From Flavobacteriaceae bacterium (lineage in GTDB: Bacteria > Bacteroidota > Bacteroidia > Flavobacteriales > Flavobacteriaceae): DNA of 32,844 bases. This document shows, in pieces, positions 13,701-22,398 of this stretch. Numbering within the stretch: the first letter of the stretch is position 1; each line of letters starts with the position of its first letter. The notes beneath the pieces are model-generated. The model worked only from the letters and a program-made list of their open reading frames with translations. It was not told the DNA's origin and made no database searches. The stretch lies in the NCBI GenBank assembly GCA_029942185.1, contig JAOZTK010000008.1:1-32844 (forward strand), written 5' to 3'. The translations under genes were made by a program, and so were the position numbers.

Positions 13701-13742
13701 TTAATTTATCCCGATTTTGATGGTTGGAATTTGATTTTTTTT

Positions 13743-13750
13743 TATCTTTG
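13743..13750 (+). promoter_or_regulatory. -7 promoter-like element before comEC
   Basis: TATCTTTG matches TAnnTTTG and ends 7 nt before the chosen comEC ATG. If used, the transcript would be nearly leaderless. TTG trinucleotides upstream lie 16 and 23 nt away, neither at ideal spacing. Confidence 0.4.
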
Positions 13751-13757
13751 TATCGCT

Positions 13758-15794
13758 ATGATAAAAATTACCCAATACATTCCCCTACATTTAAGTTTTT
13801 TTCTCGTTTTAGGTGTCTTGTTAGGTTATTACTTTTTTATTCCTATTGAGTATCTCTTTTTTTTCGGATTGGCAATTCTCACTTTACTAGTCTTCTTTTT
13901 TCAGCTTACTAAAAAATATTTACAACTGAGGTGGATTTTTCAATTATTGACTTATGTATTAATATTTTTTATAGGACTTACAAGTATTTCTTTACGTGAT
14001 AAACAAAATCAAAAGACCCACTACTCTCATTCTGTTTCTAAGGAAAATAGTCTTATTTTTCAAATAGATAAAAAATTAAAATCTACTTTGTATCACGATA
14101 AATACTACGCGAACGTCTTACAAATTAACAACACCAAATCTAAAGGAAAAATACTTGTAAATGTATCTAAGGACAGTGTTTTAAAAAAATTTAAGATAGG
14201 AGAAACATACTTGACTACTTCTATCTTATCCGAAATAAACAAACCCTTAAATCCGCATGGCTTTGATTACAGTAACTACTTAAAAAAACAAAAAATACAG
14301 CATCAAATTTCTTTAAACAGCTCGGATTTATTAGCACTTCCTTTTAAAAATAACAGCCTGAGAGTTATCGCTGCAAAATGGCGTAATAAAATACAAACTG
14401 CACTTGATAGATACGCCTTTAAAGATAATGAAATGGCCATCATAAATGCGATTGTTTTAGGTCAAAGACAAAGTATTTCAAAAGACTTATTGAACAGTTA
14501 TGCCGGCGCTGGTGCCATTCATATTTTGGCAGTTTCCGGTTTACATGTGGGAATTCTTTTTTTAATACTGGGATTTGTTTTAAAACCTTTGGAGAAAATC
14601 AAAAATGGAAGGCATCTTAAAACCCTACTTATCGTTCTTTTCTTATGGGGTTTTGCCTTGCTAACCGGTTTAAGCGGCTCGGTTGTTCGTGCCGTTACAA
14701 TGTTTACTTTTATTGCAATTGGTCTGGCGATAAGAAGCCAAAGATCTGCTGTTTTACACGCCTTAATCACTTCTTTTTTTATATTGGTTTTAATACATCC
14801 ATACTACCTGTTTGACGTAGGTTTTCAAATGAGTTACACCGCTGTATTAGGGATTGTGTTACTCTATCCAAAACTAAATGCATCAATCCCCAGAATCAAA
14901 TGGGCTTTCCCAAGAAAAATATGGGAATTGTTTTGTGTTTCAGTTACCGCTACCATTGGAACACTTCCGATAAGTTTGTATTATTTTCATCAATTTCCGG
15001 GATTGTTCTTTGTTTCAAATATTGTGATTGTTCCTTTTTTGGGAATAATTATGGGAATGGGAATTTTAGTTGTAATCTTGGCTTTAATCGAGATTTTACC
15101 GGCTATTTTGGTTCAGATTTATGGATTTATCTTGTCGATGATGAATACTTTTATCGAATGGGTAGCACATCAGGAACAATTTTTGTTTAAAAATATTTCC
15201 TTTTCAATCTTTGTATTGCTTGCAAGTTATTTAATCATTGCAATGGGTTATCGTTGGTGGATAGATAAGAAAACCTCCAAACTTCTTGTATTTCTCACCA
15301 CGATTCTAATCTTTGAATCTATCCTTTTTATCGAAAAATATGAGCGGGAAACAAGTGATGAATTTGTTATTTTCCACAAAAGTAAGGAAAGTATCTTGGG
15401 CATAAAAAAAGCCAATACACTTCAGATCTTTCATTCATTTGATTCTATCCAAAATGCCAATTTAAGTTTTGTAGACACATACAAAGTTGGGCGTAAACTA
15501 ACTAAGAACAAATTTATCAATCATATTCCCAATGTTATTAACTATAAAAATTTGAAAATTTTAGTAGTGGACAGTTTGGGTATTTACAATGATATATCCT
15601 TTACACCCAATATCGTTTTGTTACGACAATCCCCTAGAATTAATTTAGAAAGACTCCTTCAAAAACACAAACTCTCTACTTTAATTATCGATGGATCAAA
15701 TTATAAAAGTTATGTAGTTCGATGGCAAAAAACTTGTTTAAAAAACAATATAAACTTTCATTATACGGGAGTGGACGGGGCTTATACTCATTAA
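13758..15794 (+). CDS. comEC: ComEC/Rec2 family DNA-uptake channel protein
   Basis: ComEC is the polytopic inner-membrane channel thought to pass single-stranded DNA into the cytosol during natural transformation. The 678 residues comprise N-terminal membrane segments, a soluble extracytoplasmic part (about 95-215), and the Competence domain from about 235 with HILAVSGLHVGI, GLSGSVVRAVTMF and multiple hydrophobic helices. The last 150 residues form a soluble tail with no metallo-beta-lactamase histidine motif, unlike long Firmicutes ComEC. I chose ATG 13758 (MIKITQY) over the upstream TTG. The final 21 codons, stop and 5 nt recur at 17270-17339, so this 3' end was involved in a rearrangement. 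Confidence 0.9.
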   Translation: MIKITQYIPLHLSFFLVLGVLLGYYFFIPIEYLFFFGLAILTLLVFFFQLTKKYLQLRWIFQLLTYVLIFFIGLTSISLRDKQNQKTHYSHSVSKENSLIFQIDKKLKSTLYHDKYYANVLQINNTKSKGKILVNVSKDSVLKKFKIGETYLTTSILSEINKPLNPHGFDYSNYLKKQKIQHQISLNSSDLLALPFKNNSLRVIAAKWRNKIQTALDRYAFKDNEMAIINAIVLGQRQSISKDLLNSYAGAGAIHILAVSGLHVGILFLILGFVLKPLEKIKNGRHLKTLLIVLFLWGFALLTGLSGSVVRAVTMFTFIAIGLAIRSQRSAVLHALITSFFILVLIHPYYLFDVGFQMSYTAVLGIVLLYPKLNASIPRIKWAFPRKIWELFCVSVTATIGTLPISLYYFHQFPGLFFVSNIVIVPFLGIIMGMGILVVILALIEILPAILVQIYGFILSMMNTFIEWVAHQEQFLFKNISFSIFVLLASYLIIAMGYRWWIDKKTSKLLVFLTTILIFESILFIEKYERETSDEFVIFHKSKESILGIKKANTLQIFHSFDSIQNANLSFVDTYKVGRKLTKNKFINHIPNVINYKNLKILVVDSLGIYNDISFTPNIVLLRQSPRINLERLLQKHKLSTLIIDGSNYKSYVVRWQKTCLKNNINFHYTGVDGAYTH

Positions 15795-15799
15795 TATAT
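15730..15799 (+). repeat. 70-bp direct repeat, copy 1 (3' end of comEC)
   Basis: This stretch is identical to 17270-17339 except at 15768 (G versus T) and 15776 (C versus T), so 68 of 70 bases match. It covers the last codons of comEC, the stop and 5 nt beyond. Copy 1 keeps the reading frame open to the natural stop. The exact offset is 1540 bp. Confidence 0.95.
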
Positions 15800-15812
15800 T
15801 CTATTTTTATTG

Positions 15813-15931
15813 CTGTTTTTGCTTGTGAAATGCCCCAACAAAATATTTTTGTTAACATAAACGAAGTAATAACAGATGCAATTGCATTGATAAATCCTAC
15901 CTTTATAAAAAAAAACAAGGTATCTTATTAG
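15813..15931 (+). pseudogene. Fragment of the downstream histidine kinase gene
   Basis: About 118 nt beginning 19 nt after the comEC stop match an internal part of the histidine kinase gene at 17495-18595. Nucleotide identity is roughly 90%, with one 3-nt insertion. The translation CEMPQQNIFVNINEVITD and what follows corresponds to kinase residues about 211-246, between the H-box and the ATPase N-box. No start, H-box or ATP site is present, so it cannot encode a kinase. It ends at TAG 15929-15931. A short further match (GATATTATTCAACT near 16022, 13 of 14 with the kinase gene near 18271) may be another remnant. Confidence 0.85.
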
Positions 15932-16078
15932 GTGTATGGTGTACGAATATTCCGGTGATGATGTGCCACTAAAAAAGAACTAATTTCTTTATAAAATTTA
16001 GTCAGTTATTTTAATATTTTTGATATTATTCAACTACTAAATAAGTTAATTCTTATTGTTCTTCTGTAATGAAACAGA

Positions 16079-16882
16079 TTAACTAGCCGCCATAGTAGCG
16101 ATTAATATAGGAATCAAAAACAAAATCCAATCATTAATGATATGCGCACCAAAAGAAACCCAGATATTCTTTGTTTTAATGTAAGCCAATGTGAGCACCA
16201 AACGAGCACTACCTATAATAACTATACATTGAATAAAATTCCAATTGTAAGTTGACAAATGTGCTAGTCCAAAAATAAGAGCAGAGATCAACCATGCCAA
16301 TATAATTGACGTTTTTCGTGAAAGTTTCATTTTCGAACTAAACATATACATTAAAGCAAGAAAAGGAAGTATTGTTAAAACTTCTTCTCCAAATAATGAT
16401 GGCATCGATTTTAAAAAGAATTCTATTTGTTCTGACCTTGTTTGAGTGGCCAACCCAGCAACTCCAGCATTACTAGCTACTCCAAATAGTGCCTTAACAA
16501 GAAATCCAACAAGCATGGTAACTACGAGATTAAGAAAGGCAAATCCAAACATCCACAAAACATCTTTTCCTTTCACTTTTCGAAAAATAGCCGTCCAATA
16601 TTTTTTGGCTACAATTGCAAGACCTACAAGTGGAATTACAAAGAATAAAACTGCTTTAAGAAACTGCATATAAAAACCACCTTTATCAAAAAAACTGATC
16701 GGTGTCATAAAGAATAAAAAACCAACCGCAACCATACCTACCACAAAAAGCCACTGCCATCCAGAAATTTTTATTGGCAACCCATTATAATAAGGAAAGT
16801 CATCGTTAGGATATTCAAATTTATTAAATCTATCTTGAGATTTGTGTGTAAGGTTTTTATTATCCGCTATATTATTTTGCAT
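16079..16882 (-). CDS. CPBP (CAAX/Abi) family intramembrane metalloprotease, variant motif
   Basis: This 267-residue protein has a hydrophilic N-terminus (about 1-40) followed by about seven membrane segments, the plan of CPBP family proteases. Family members process prenylated or signal-peptide-like substrates or act in bacteriocin self-immunity. Motif 1 appears as GEEVLTI with Glu166-Glu167 but without the usual Arg of EExxxR. Motif 2 is FGLAH with His208, and motif 3 is HIIND with His247 and Asn250-Asp251. The metal ligands therefore appear retained. It is the only - strand gene in the rearranged patch between the comEC end repeats. Substrate and role are unknown; immunity or membrane protein processing are both possible. 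Confidence 0.8.
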   Translation of the reverse strand: MQNNIADNKNLTHKSQDRFNKFEYPNDDFPYYNGLPIKISGWQWLFVVGMVAVGFLFFMTPISFFDKGGFYMQFLKAVLFFVIPLVGLAIVAKKYWTAIFRKVKGKDVLWMFGFAFLNLVVTMLVGFLVKALFGVASNAGVAGLATQTRSEQIEFFLKSMPSLFGEEVLTILPFLALMYMFSSKMKLSRKTSIILAWLISALIFGLAHLSTYNWNFIQCIVIIGSARLVLTLAYIKTKNIWVSFGAHIINDWILFLIPILIATMAAS

Positions 16883-17149
16883 AGTTATGGTGTTAGTTTA
16901 TAAATATTTAAATTTTAGTTTCTTAAATTCTTGACTTTTTTTTTAAAAAAAATTAGTTTAAATCAACATCCTCAACATTATCGCCTTCCCTCCATATAGA
17001 ATTTAACATGACCTATTGAATAACTTGTTTAAAAAGGCAAATATACTATTTTTTGGTTATTTTTCAGATAAAATTATGCTTTCTGAATAGATAAAGTGAT
17101 TATTTAGCTGAGTATTAGATATTTAAACTCAATCCTGTCCTAAATAGAT

Positions 17150-17210
17150 TAAGAGAGAAAATCTAAAGATCTCAAAGATCTTTGAGTTGTTCAAAAAAAA
17201 CTCTCTCTTA
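17150..17210. repeat. Nested inverted repeats
   Basis: Outer 8-bp arms TAAGAGAG (17150-17157) and CTCTCTTA (17203-17210) enclose a perfect 16-bp palindrome CTCAAAGATCTTTGAG (17171-17186). Together they could fold into a two-level hairpin. It may be a terminator, an operator or a mobile-element end; there is no clear U-run. Confidence 0.5.
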
Positions 17211-17269
17211 TATCAGAAATAACACTATTTGGTCAGATAATCCAAAGATTATACCGTTCAATTTTCAAT

Positions 17270-17339
17270 AAACTTGTTTAAAAAACAATATAAACTTTCA
17301 TTATACGTGAGTGGATGGGGCTTATACTCATTAATATAT
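17270..17339 (+). repeat. 70-bp direct repeat, copy 2 (vestigial comEC end)
   Basis: This is the second copy of the comEC 3' end, 68/70 identical to 15730-15799. The G-to-T difference at 17308 turns the glycine codon GGA into TGA, so this copy is a dead remnant. It lies 155 nt upstream of the intact kinase gene, whereas copy 1 is followed by a kinase fragment. Confidence 0.95.
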
Positions 17340-17444
17340 AAACACTCCTAAAAGTTGCATTTACTAATTGAACTTAAGTCGTCGTATTTTTATAAAGATA
17401 CAGATGGACACTTAAAAAAAATTAATTCTTAAAATTGATATCGT

Positions 17445-17471
17445 ATTTAGTAAAATATTACTAAATTTAGT
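17445..17471. promoter_or_regulatory. Operator-like palindromes upstream of the kinase gene
   Basis: ATTTAGTAA (17445-17453) and TTACTAAAT (17458-17466) are perfect 9-bp arms around a 4-nt loop, and ACTAAATTTAGT (17460-17471) is an overlapping 12-bp palindrome. TTTAGT is thus present three times in alternating orientation, 24 nt before the kinase ATG. That is a plausible site for autoregulation of the two-component operon. Confidence 0.45.
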
Positions 17472-17494
17472 GAATCTTTTTAACAACAGAACCT

Positions 17495-18595
17495 ATGGCA
17501 AAAACATCTACAACTAAAGAACAGTTAAAGGAGCGGATAAAGGAGCTTACTTGTTTATATGAAGTTACTTCAATTATTGTAAATTGTGATTATAATAATT
17601 TACAAAAATGTTTGCAAGAAATTTCATTTCGCTTAAAAGAAGCTTTACTTTATAATAACGATGCTTATGTTGAAATTAAAACAAAAGATTATTTTATTTC
17701 CTCGGAAGTTTTGTCAAAAAACATGGTTAGTATTAGCTCTGATCTGTATGTTTCAAACCAAAAAGAAGGTGTATTAAAGGTAGGATATCCCGATGATAAA
17801 TTTACAGAAAGTGATTTTTTATATGAAGAAAAACAATTAATAACAAAGATTGGACTAGAAATTGGTAATTTACTAGAACGTAAAAATGATCTAGATTATG
17901 AGGAACTATTAGAAAGAAAGGTGCAGCGAGCAGATAGAGTTAATATTTTAGGCGAAATTACAGCTGGTATTGCCCATGAATTAAACACTCCATTAACAAA
18001 TATTTTAGGCTTCGCAGAGTTACTAAAGAGTAAATTTAAAATAGAAACACAAGAAGCTAATGATATTGATAAAATTATAAACAATGCCATATTCACAAGG
18101 GAAGTAGTGAAAAAACTGATGTTTTTTGCTTGTGAAATGCCACAACAAAAGGTTTTTGTTAACATAAACGAAGTAATAACAGATGCAATTGCGTTGTTAG
18201 ATCCTACATTTAAAAAACACAAGATATCTTATAAGCTAAATTTTAGCAATCCAACAATTTATCTAAGAATAGATACTATTCAACTGACCCAAGTTATGTT
18301 TAACTTAGTTTTAAATGCTATTTATTTTTCACCACCTGAAAGTATTATAACCGTTGATGTGACAAACAATGTAAACGGAGTAAAACTTAGTATTTCTGAT
18401 GAGGGGGATGGGATAAAACATAATATTTCTGATAAAATTTTTAATCCTTTTTTCACAACAAAACCTGTTGGTGATGGAGCAGGATTAGGATTGAGTGTGG
18501 TACACGGTATTATTAAAAGTCATAATGGAACTATTAAACATATGCCTAACAAACCAAAAGGAACTATTTTTATTATTAATTTTCCAAATTTATAA
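17495..18595 (+). CDS. Cytosolic sensor histidine kinase
   Basis: This 366-residue kinase has no membrane segment or signal peptide. An N-terminal coiled-coil-like stretch (LKERIKELTCLYEVTSII, about 11-28) leads into a GAF-like sensor region (about 30-130). The HisKA H-box is AGIAHELNTP with phospho-acceptor His161. The HATPase domain shows the N-box NLVLNAI (Asn270/Asn274), G1 DEGDGI (302-307), F-box FNPFFTTK and G2 GAGLGLS (328-334). It should phosphorylate the response regulator starting 4 nt downstream. The cytosolic sensor suggests an internal signal, perhaps nitrogen or redox state; this is inference. A fragment of the same gene lies at 15813-15931. Confidence 0.95.
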   Translation: MAKTSTTKEQLKERIKELTCLYEVTSIIVNCDYNNLQKCLQEISFRLKEALLYNNDAYVEIKTKDYFISSEVLSKNMVSISSDLYVSNQKEGVLKVGYPDDKFTESDFLYEEKQLITKIGLEIGNLLERKNDLDYEELLERKVQRADRVNILGEITAGIAHELNTPLTNILGFAELLKSKFKIETQEANDIDKIINNAIFTREVVKKLMFFACEMPQQKVFVNINEVITDAIALLDPTFKKHKISYKLNFSNPTIYLRIDTIQLTQVMFNLVLNAIYFSPPESIITVDVTNNVNGVKLSISDEGDGIKHNISDKIFNPFFTTKPVGDGAGLGLSVVHGIIKSHNGTIKHMPNKPKGTIFIINFPNL

Positions 18596-18599
18596 GGAA

Positions 18600-19928
18600 A
18601 TGAGATTACACCAAGAAAATATATTAATTGTCGATGATGACATCAACATATTAGAACTTATTCAAAGGCATTTACAATCGTTAAATTACCATAGTTATAA
18701 AGCAATTTCAGTAAAAGAGGCAATTCAAATTTTAAAAGACACTCAAATAGATTTATTAATTACCGACATTAAAATGCCAAAAGTAGATGGTTTTCAGTTA
18801 ATTAAATATGTTTCAGAGCATTACCCTGAACTGCCAAAATTAGTAATTACAGGACATCCTTCTTTAAACGATGCTGTAGATGTAATGAAATCCGGTGCTA
18901 TTGATTATTTGGTAAAACCTTTTACAAAAGAAGAATTAAAAGAATCCGTCATCAAATCTTTTGTCAGTAAACAAAATTCAAATTCTACTCGCAATCTGTC
19001 ACAAAATAATGACATTGCATATACCTATGGTGAACTTATTTGGCATTCCTCACAGTTTAAAAAAGTAACTGAAATTATTGATAGGGTAAAAAACAATAAA
19101 GCAACGGTTTTTATACAAGGAGAGAGTGGTACCGGTAAGGAGTTAGTGGCTCGTTCTATTCACTATATGGGTAAATTTGCAAGAGCACCTTTTATTACGG
19201 TAAACTGTGCTGCCATCCCTGAAAGTTTGTTGGAATCTGAGCTTTTCGGTTATGTAAAAGGTGCTTTTACAGGTGCTGACAGCAATCGAAATGGGTTTTT
19301 TCAAGCAGCAAATAAAGGCACTATTTTTTTAGATGAAATTGGAAGTGCTTCTTTGGCGGTACAAGCAGGTTTATTGCGTGTATTACAAGAAAAAGAAATC
19401 ACGAGAATAGGGTCTCAAAAAACAGAAAAAATAGATGTAAGAATAGTTACGGCCACCAATGCTAATTTAGAAGAACTTATTCATAAAAAATTGTTTAGAG
19501 AAGATTTGTTTTATCGACTTACAGTTGTGCAAATAAATGTACCTCCTCTTAGAGAAAGAAAATCGGATATTCCTGTTTTAGTTGATAAATTTTTATTTAA
19601 ATACGGAATTGAGTATAAAGATAAATTCGTGAAAATATCTTCAGAAGCAATGGAGATTTTAAAACGGTATCACTGGCCGGGTAATATTCGCGAGCTTGAA
19701 AATGTAATGCAAAGGGCAATAATAATGTGTGATAAAAATATAGAAGTAAAAGATTTACCTGAGCAATTGAAATTTAAAATTAATTTTCCTGAAGCATCAC
19801 TATTACCACTTAAAGAAATTGAGAAGAATCATATTCTTAAAGTTTTGGCATCTACTGGCAATAATAAAACAAAAGCTGCAAAAATACTTCAAATTGACCG
19901 TAAAACACTGAGTCAAAAAATACAATAA
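18600..19928 (+). CDS. Sigma-54-dependent response regulator (NtrC/AtoC family)
   Basis: This 442-residue activator has a receiver domain (about 7-118; acidic pair Asp12-Asp13, phospho-acceptor Asp56, Lys106), a sigma-54 AAA+ domain (about 145-380), and a C-terminal Fis-type HTH (about 405-442). In the AAA+ domain are Walker A GESGTGKE (174-181), GAFTGA (221-226), Walker B FLDEIG (243-248) and FREDLFYRL. GAFTGA is the loop that contacts sigma-54. The start is ATG 18600, 4 nt after the kinase stop and preceded by TAAGGAA; earlier in-frame codons lie inside the kinase gene. The HTH ends abruptly at LSQKIQ. Likely targets are the inverted repeat and promoter before the four-cysteine gene. Confidence 0.96.
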   Translation: MRLHQENILIVDDDINILELIQRHLQSLNYHSYKAISVKEAIQILKDTQIDLLITDIKMPKVDGFQLIKYVSEHYPELPKLVITGHPSLNDAVDVMKSGAIDYLVKPFTKEELKESVIKSFVSKQNSNSTRNLSQNNDIAYTYGELIWHSSQFKKVTEIIDRVKNNKATVFIQGESGTGKELVARSIHYMGKFARAPFITVNCAAIPESLLESELFGYVKGAFTGADSNRNGFFQAANKGTIFLDEIGSASLAVQAGLLRVLQEKEITRIGSQKTEKIDVRIVTATNANLEELIHKKLFREDLFYRLTVVQINVPPLRERKSDIPVLVDKFLFKYGIEYKDKFVKISSEAMEILKRYHWPGNIRELENVMQRAIIMCDKNIEVKDLPEQLKFKINFPEASLLPLKEIEKNHILKVLASTGNNKTKAAKILQIDRKTLSQKIQ

Positions 19929-20113: not shown

Positions 20114-20365
20114 ATGAAAAATCCAAACAATAGTACTATGAGTAAAATAGATAGCAGTTTATGTTCCAATTGTATTCATGCAAAATCGTGTACACTAACT
20201 GAAAGCAAACGATTTATATGGTCGTGTAGTGAATTTGAATCTGAAGATTTACACAAAAAACATATTGCAGAAAAAAAACATGTTACAGAAAAATTAAAAC
20301 CTCAATCTGAAAATTTATACAGAAAACATGTTACAGAAAAATTAAAACCTCAATTCGAATTTTAA
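20114..20365 (+). CDS. Small four-cysteine protein, possible metal-binding partner of glutamate dehydrogenase
   Basis: I do not recognise a named family. The 83 residues have cysteines at 17, 20, 26 and 38 (CxxC-x5-C-x11-C) around IWSCSEFE, a spacing compatible with binding zinc or an iron-sulfur cluster. The rest (about 42-83) is a charged, probably helical tail with a duplicated 16-residue unit, HVTEKLKPQSENLYRK then HVTEKLKPQFEF. There is no signal peptide. It lies 10 nt upstream of glutamate dehydrogenase, so the two are almost certainly co-transcribed, and it follows a sigma-54-like promoter. It could regulate the dehydrogenase or act as a small sensor; neither is shown. The first ATG fits the inferred transcript start; Met9 is an alternative. 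Confidence 0.75.
   Translation: MKNPNNSTMSKIDSSLCSNCIHAKSCTLTESKRFIWSCSEFESEDLHKKHIAEKKHVTEKLKPQSENLYRKHVTEKLKPQFEF
20275..20354 (+). repeat. Tandem 48-bp repeat inside the four-cysteine gene
   Basis: A 32-bp sequence at 20275-20306 recurs exactly at 20323-20354, a 48-bp (16-codon) period, encoding two KHVTEKLKPQ units. A weaker third unit, KHIAEK, precedes them. In-frame duplication of the tail appears recent because the DNA copies are identical. Confidence 0.9.
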
Positions 20366-20375
20366 ACTAAATCTT

Positions 20376-21668
20376 ATGCTGACAAAAGAACTAAAACAAC
20401 AAAAATTACGAAAACGAGGAATGTATGAAAATGTAATGAAACAATTCAATACAGTTGCAGACCTTATCAATTTGAATCCAAATATTAGAAAAATATTGGG
20501 GATTACAAATAATGAGTTAGTCATTCACTTTCCTGTTAAAATGGATAATGGTGAAGTTGAAATATTAACCGGTTATAGAGTACAACATAATAATGCTCTA
20601 GGGCCATACAAAGGAGGTCTTCGTTATCATGCAACAACTAATACTGACTCTGTAAAAGCTTTAGCCATGTGGATGACATGGAAAACCTCTCTTACGGGAT
20701 TACCATTCGGAGGTGCAAAAGGTGGTATTCAAATAGATCCATCAAATTATTCTAATTCTGAATTAGAACGTATTACAAGACGATTTACATATGCCTTAGG
20801 AGATAATATCGGGCCTGATATTGATATACCAGCTCCTGATGTAAATACAAATTCCCAGACAATGGCCTGGATTGCAGATACCTATATGTCAACAAGATCA
20901 CCATCTGATCGTTCTAATAATCAACATGTTGTTACTGGAAAACCTGTAGGTTCCGGAGGCTTGGAGGGTAGAGATAGAGCAACTGGATATGGGGTATATT
21001 TAAACATTAAATTTTGGACTAAAGAGAATAATATTAGTTTAAAAAATAAAAGATATATTGTACAGGGTTTTGGAAATGTAGGATATTGGACAGCCCACTT
21101 TTTAGAAAAAGACGGTGCTATTTTAGTAGGTGTACAAGATGCCTATGGAAGTATTGCTAATGTAAATGGTATTCAGGTTGAAGATCTTCAACAATATGTA
21201 TTACAAAATAAAGGAAGCATTGCAAATTATCCTAAATCACAACCTATTGAGAAAGACGACTTTTACGCATTGAGTTGTGATATTTGTATTCCTGCAGCAT
21301 TAGGAAATCAAATTACTGAGGAAAACGCCTCTAAAATTAAAGCTTTTTTAGTTGCTGAAGGAGCCAATGGACCTACTTCTGTTGAAGGGGAAAAGATTTT
21401 ATTAAAAAACGGAATTATGGTAATTCCAGATATTTTGTGTAATTCCGGTGGTGTAATCGCAAGTTATTTTGAATGGCTTCAAAATAGAAGTGGTGAATTT
21501 TGGGAATTGGAGGAAGTTTTAATAAAATTAGAGAAAAAATTAAAAAAGGTATTTAAAAAAGTTTTGAAGATGTCTCGAAAAAGAAATGTCGATATGCGAA
21601 CAGCTGCTTATATTATAGCTATTGAACGTATAGAAAAGTCCTATTTGCAAAGAGGAATCTTCCCCTAA
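20376..21668 (+). CDS. gdhA: Glutamate dehydrogenase (Glu/Leu/Phe/Val dehydrogenase family)
   Basis: The enzyme interconverts glutamate and 2-oxoglutarate plus ammonium in the cytosol. The 430 residues carry the substrate-site lysines in GPYKGGLRYH (Lys79) and MTWKTSL (Lys103), the catalytic lysine in GGAKGGI (Lys115), the catalytic aspartate in PAPDVNT (Asp155), and the Rossmann motif GFGNVG (231-236). The acidic Asp255 after the second strand suggests NAD+ rather than NADP+, pointing to catabolic use; this is inference. It follows the four-cysteine ORF by 10 nt and ends before a strong palindromic terminator. An alternative start is Met16 (MYENVMKQF), but the closer ATG at 20376 fits the operon spacing. 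Confidence 0.93.
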   Translation: MLTKELKQQKLRKRGMYENVMKQFNTVADLINLNPNIRKILGITNNELVIHFPVKMDNGEVEILTGYRVQHNNALGPYKGGLRYHATTNTDSVKALAMWMTWKTSLTGLPFGGAKGGIQIDPSNYSNSELERITRRFTYALGDNIGPDIDIPAPDVNTNSQTMAWIADTYMSTRSPSDRSNNQHVVTGKPVGSGGLEGRDRATGYGVYLNIKFWTKENNISLKNKRYIVQGFGNVGYWTAHFLEKDGAILVGVQDAYGSIANVNGIQVEDLQQYVLQNKGSIANYPKSQPIEKDDFYALSCDICIPAALGNQITEENASKIKAFLVAEGANGPTSVEGEKILLKNGIMVIPDILCNSGGVIASYFEWLQNRSGEFWELEEVLIKLEKKLKKVFKKVLKMSRKRNVDMRTAAYIIAIERIEKSYLQRGIFP

Positions 21669-21789: not shown

Positions 21790-21882
21790 ACAAAATAGAC
21801 TATATCAAAACAATGAAAAGTACGCTTGTCTATCCGAAAATAGGTGTAACGGTTATAATTTTAAAATAAATGTAATGTTTAT

Positions 21883-21913
21883 TTGTCATTATGTAAAGTT
21901 TTCTTTACTTTTA
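21883..21913 (+). promoter_or_regulatory. Promoter of the membrane protein-HTH pair
   Basis: TTG (21883-21885), a 20-nt spacer and TACTTTTA (21906-21913, one mismatch to TAnnTTTG) lie 23 nt before the ATG at 21937. The transcript start near 21918 excludes longer in-frame starts. Confidence 0.55.
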
Positions 21914-21936
21914 CACTATATTTAGAAACATTTTTT

Positions 21937-22398
21937 ATGGAAACAGGCTATTTATTTCAACACAAATACAAAAAAGTAGGATGGTTTTTATTTTTCATTG
22001 GAGTTTTAGCCGGACTAAGTTATTATATTTTTGAACTTCAAGAACTAGAATTCTTTGAGGTAAATATTTTTACCCTATTCAACGATTCTTTTTTAAATAA
22101 AACTAACAGCTTTTCCATTAGTAAAGATAATATTCTAAATGAAATCATCGCAATATTTCTTATACTTGGAGCACTACTAGTGGCATTTTCTAAAACTAAA
22201 TCTGAAGATGAATTAGTTATTAAATTACGCATGGAATCATTGGTATTAGCTACCTACCTTAATTATGTAATATTAGTTTTAGCCATCCTATTTACGTATG
22301 GTTTTGTTTTTTTTGAAGTAATGGTATTTAATCTATTTACAATTCTTATCTTTTTTGTAATTATTTTTCATTACAAACTGTACAAATTAAACAAATAG
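21937..22398 (+). CDS. Four-helix membrane protein paired with an HTH regulator
   Basis: I recognise no named family. The 153 residues begin with a short amphipathic METGYLFQHKYKK and contain four hydrophobic segments: about 15-32 (VGWFLFFIGVLAGLSYYI), 70-85, 104-122 and 127-145. I chose the ATG at 21937 because the promoter's predicted transcript start is just upstream. A Cro/CI-like HTH gene starts one nt after its stop. Such membrane protein plus small HTH pairs are common in Bacteroidetes and Firmicutes, where the HTH is usually thought to control its partner. The role here is unknown. Confidence 0.8.
   Translation: METGYLFQHKYKKVGWFLFFIGVLAGLSYYIFELQELEFFEVNIFTLFNDSFLNKTNSFSISKDNILNEIIAIFLILGALLVAFSKTKSEDELVIKLRMESLVLATYLNYVILVLAILFTYGFVFFEVMVFNLFTILIFFVIIFHYKLYKLNK

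Follow-up and report, generated by a model that had tools for sequence, protein, structure and literature searches.

A probable tandem duplication, now decayed, of the comEC/kinase boundary around a CPBP protease gene in a Flavobacteriaceae genome

The repeated 3' end of comEC in contig JAOZTK010000008.1 of a Flavobacteriaceae bacterium is probably part of a decayed, non-mobile tandem duplication of the boundary between comEC and a histidine-kinase gene, formed around a CPBP membrane protease gene that was itself probably acquired. We analyzed the locus within a window of 32,844 nucleotides (the whole stretch of DNA under study). Table 1 lists its features, three of which were absent from the initial annotation: the kinase block beside copy 1 of the repeat, the IS-end-like unit after copy 2 and the dnaK match.

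Table 1. Features at the comEC/kinase boundary (positions in the window)
Feature	Position	Strand	Basis or remark
comEC	13731-15794	+	Intact; Pfam Competence and DUF4131; tail alignment
Repeat copy 1 of the comEC 3' end	15726-15799	+	Repeat comparison
Filler, 16 nt, at the site of the ~767-bp deletion of the left copy	15800-15815	.	Alignment
Decayed histidine-kinase fragment, duplicate of 18123-18235	15816-15931	+	~89% identity; 3-nt insertion; TAG
CPBP (Rce1-like, PF02517) membrane protease gene, intact	16079-16882	-	Domain match; distribution
dnaK 3'-end match	16960-16988	-	27/29 versus the genome's own dnaK; both differences synonymous
Repeat copy 2 of the comEC 3' end	17266-17339	+	Nonsense change; non-functional
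Dispersed IS-end-like unit	17333-17378	+	Outer end CTTAAG towards the kinase; directly after copy 2
Histidine kinase (HisKA, HATPase_c), intact	17495-18595	+	Domain matches
NtrC-type sigma-54 response regulator	18495-19928	+	Start codon uncertain; listed ORF overlaps the kinase
Glutamate dehydrogenase-family gene	20376-21668	+	Accompanies the kinase module in G005 and in other Flavobacteriaceae
Ancestral comEC-downstream flank resumes	21858-22398	+	Leftover comEC stop region, then gene 21883; G005 alignment

A direct repeat of the comEC 3' end

The repeat was initially described as 70 bp with 68 identical positions (15730-15799 and 17270-17339), 1540 bp apart. It proved slightly longer: extended past one further mismatch (15729/17269), it runs without gaps over 74 nucleotides, 71 of them identical, with the same 1540 bp from start to start. 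Copy 1 contains, as annotated, about 21 final codons of comEC, the stop codon (15792-15794) and 5 nucleotides. In copy 2 a GGA codon has become TGA and no comEC frame lies upstream, which bears out the earlier view that copy 1 alone serves comEC.

We assessed chance by dinucleotide shuffling of the 9-kb surroundings, repeated 30 times, and scored the ungapped direct repeats in each shuffle. Since no shuffle scored above 17, against 65 for this repeat (74 nucleotides, 3 mismatches), we exclude a chance origin; the top real repeat scored 71. The initial annotation had also raised the possibility that the comEC end is repeated at many sites. We found two copies and no further site in the 2.2-Mb, 204-contig genome, which rules out a dispersed repeat. 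Neither a tRNA nor a known structured RNA was found at the repeat site.

A second repeated block in the kinase gene

Part of the kinase gene is repeated as well. A stretch from its middle (18123-18235) is the original of a fragment that starts 16 bases past copy 1, and the comEC ends and kinase blocks are collinear and in direct orientation. A single segment of about 970 bp (17266-18235) is therefore present twice. The comEC ends are 1540 bp apart and the kinase blocks 2307 bp: the left pair is thus 767 bp closer, and the left copy has an internal deletion. A search of the deleted stretch for the source of the 16-nucleotide filler gave no convincing match.

In its gap-free part, the kinase fragment shows three silent and four replacement changes, and the aligned relatives are generally closer to the intact gene than to the fragment. 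With its TAG codon, its 3-nucleotide insertion and its mainly replacement changes, the fragment reads as a redundant copy in decay. comEC and the kinase each rely on one intact copy, and the repeat is without present function. Tandem duplication followed by deletion, which the initial annotation had offered as its second choice, is thus well supported by the collinear kinase block beside copy 1.

The same details bear on whether strain variants or repeats could have been mis-joined in what is a metagenome-type assembly. The genome's division into 204 contigs and the occurrence of repeats, among them the IS-end-like unit, at a contig end (C160) would fit such an error. However, a living kinase variant would not have a TAG codon, an in-frame insertion and mostly replacement changes, and a mis-join would not create a clear-cut internal loss of 767 bp with filler in its place. 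We consider an assembly artefact improbable.

An inserted block downstream of comEC

We compared the locus with five relatives of the same genus, none of them conspecific (G001 to G005), whose ComEC proteins share 45-76% amino-acid identity; as the nearest congeners are distant, flank boundaries are accurate to a few bases only. All five have a single comEC end and lack the downstream block. In G001, G003 and G004, a homologue of gene 22683 (a Pif1/HRDC helicase) lies about 70-115 bp past comEC. In G005, a homologue of gene 21883 occupies that place, at a similar distance (about 70-115 bp), and is followed by the 22683 homologue; in G002, comEC is followed by a homologue of gene 25634. In our genome, homology to the old downstream DNA returns at the point of the G005 comEC stop, near position 21858. 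Because the congeners have no such block after comEC, we interpret 15784 to about 21857, which carries the CPBP, kinase, regulator and dehydrogenase genes, as an insertion into the last comEC codons, or a relocated block, in this lineage.

A DNA search of six congeners located the kinase/NtrC-type regulator/glutamate dehydrogenase module in G005 only, at a different locus; the three genes also co-occur in four Flavobacteriaceae loci (L025, L027, L033 and L051). Between regulator and dehydrogenase lies a small ORF whose end contains a direct repeat with a 48-bp period (20275-20359; 37 nucleotides, 95%).

The tail alignment helps to order these events. ComEC here ends in GAYTH-stop, and in most congeners in GA[FY][IV][LM]K-stop. 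As the altered tail ACTCATTAATATAT is common to both repeat copies, the block insertion would have come before the duplication.

Elements mobilized by tyrosine recombinases can duplicate their attachment site at the 3' end of a gene. The initial annotation had pointed to a resemblance with this arrangement, under which the CPBP segment, or a larger element, would have integrated site-specifically at the comEC 3' end, its recombinase acting in trans or since lost. Some features are shared: a gene 3' end and its stop codon are present as a short direct repeat, comEC is still readable and a foreign-looking gene lies between the copies. The outer copy of an attachment site, however, should adjoin the ancestral downstream DNA. 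Copy 2 does not: it meets the IS-end-like unit and the kinase, and the ancestral flank lies about 4.5 kb beyond. Moreover, the repeated sequence runs on into the neighboring kinase gene, and no second site exists in the genome. In agreement with the earlier report that the 1.5-kb segment has no integrase, the CPBP gene is the only ORF of at least 90 amino acids between the copies and a recombinase gene is absent there. On flank order, extension into the kinase and the missing recombinase, we reject the attachment-site reading as very improbable.

An IS-end-like unit next to the kinase

The IS-end-like unit that follows copy 2 ends in GTTGCATTTACTAATTGAACTTAAG, and its core occurs six times in this genome. 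Units of about 28-46 nucleotides were found on contigs C7, C10, C46, C119 and C160, mostly solo and intergenic. Related unit ends are present in G009 and G022, mostly near contig ends, as part of IS-like elements; one of those in G009 lies just downstream of the end of an rve-domain (IS3-like) transposase. In the window, no second unit was found with up to 3 mismatches, so that the unit is present on the left side only, and no transposase lies beside it. We also considered whether the kinase module came in as a composite insertion bounded by IS copies, but IS copies at both ends with a target-site duplication are absent. The unit suggests, rather than proves, that an IS was involved in moving the kinase module to comEC.

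Other small repeats occur in this genome: around 11700-12000 of contig C10 (locus L105) we observed two intergenic repeats of about 45 and 60 nucleotides, with dozens of copies here and in G001. They resemble REP-type elements or small non-autonomous ones.

The CPBP segment

The two copies of the duplicated segment do not abut: 1334 bp carrying the CPBP gene lie between them (15932-17265), and tandem duplication therefore needs an additional capture step. The CPBP protein keeps the motifs that it shares with its nearest plasmid relatives; the closest ones found are encoded on plasmids of Roseateles and Paracoccus and are about 40% identical. Six congeners gave no hit for the gene, and in our samples of the family and phylum all matches were weak. 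Its base composition is not distinctive; it is from this distribution, and not from composition, that a foreign origin is argued, and the gene was probably acquired horizontally from outside the genus. At the DNA level, the segment had no match to phage or plasmid DNA, and we found no viral contig encoding a relative of the CPBP protein. Our searches returned no donor of the segment.

Upstream of the CPBP gene lies a 29-nucleotide piece of the dnaK 3' end, which makes the segment look composite. Outside the genus, the piece was matched only with one or two mismatches, in four further genera of this family, and no clear donor emerged. With ends of both comEC and dnaK present, one may imagine a mobile CPBP segment that collects gene 3' ends through a trans-acting recombination system which inserts or excises at gene ends; we find this extremely improbable.

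The composite look of the segment, with its dnaK tail, would also fit two unrelated steps, in which slippage or unequal exchange duplicated the junction and the CPBP segment was inserted independently at the joint later on. Neither clear homology nor a target-site duplication was seen at the joints, which is compatible with such a history. However, the insertion would have to hit the exact joint of a fresh duplication, and a single event is simpler; we regard two unrelated steps as unlikely.

Proposed history and comparison with known systems

We propose that the tandem duplication of the comEC/kinase boundary arose in three steps. In the first, shown by the comparison with congeners, the kinase/NtrC-type regulator/glutamate dehydrogenase block, with the IS-end-like unit ahead of it, came to sit in the last codons of comEC, so that TH-stop replaced the usual ComEC tail and the old flank was displaced to about 21858. 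In the second, about 970 bp of the new comEC/kinase junction (today's 17266-18235) were duplicated, and the 1.33-kb CPBP segment now marks the joint. Incoming DNA would most likely have been captured additively here, through either a Campbell-type single crossover or homology-facilitated illegitimate recombination. The product of this step is there to be read; from it we infer the mechanism and the union of duplication and CPBP capture in one event, and the two may have been separate. In the third step, the left copy lost about 767 bp, and the left kinase fragment and the right comEC end drifted unconstrained; the present sequences document this deletion and drift.

In homology-facilitated illegitimate recombination, foreign DNA is trapped next to a homologous stretch. 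Our locus is similar in that foreign DNA, whose ends have little or no homology, stands beside sequence shared with the chromosome; it differs in that no donor was found in which a homologous anchor could be recognized.

A further parallel comes from natural transformation of Streptococcus pneumoniae, where clone R3022 combined the additive insertion of a cassette with a 3,276-bp duplication without flanking repeats (PMC3784515). In these transformation experiments, small duplications without flanking repeats were observed, one of them with an additive cassette, and the authors call the mechanism unclear (PMC3784515); the same paper also cites homology-facilitated illegitimate recombination. 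Our locus shares with R3022 a short duplicated segment without flanking repeats, together with DNA new to the site. It differs from the R3022 duplication, which was observed directly in an experiment and has two fresh copies: the one studied here is old, survives as a relic that lacks 767 bp and belongs to another phylum, and uptake by transformation is hypothetical for it.

Conclusions

A probably non-native membrane protease gene has arrived beside comEC, a DNA-uptake gene. We see no evidence that comEC itself contributed to this arrival, and our literature search on comEC as an integration hotspot found nothing relevant. The arrangement is genuine, but it is an ordinary remnant of gene acquisition and duplication and not an attachment site of the phage or island type. 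It provides a worked example of how an attachment-site-like repeat of a gene 3' end can be recognized, given a second repeated block and a comparison with relatives, as one half of a degraded tandem duplication.
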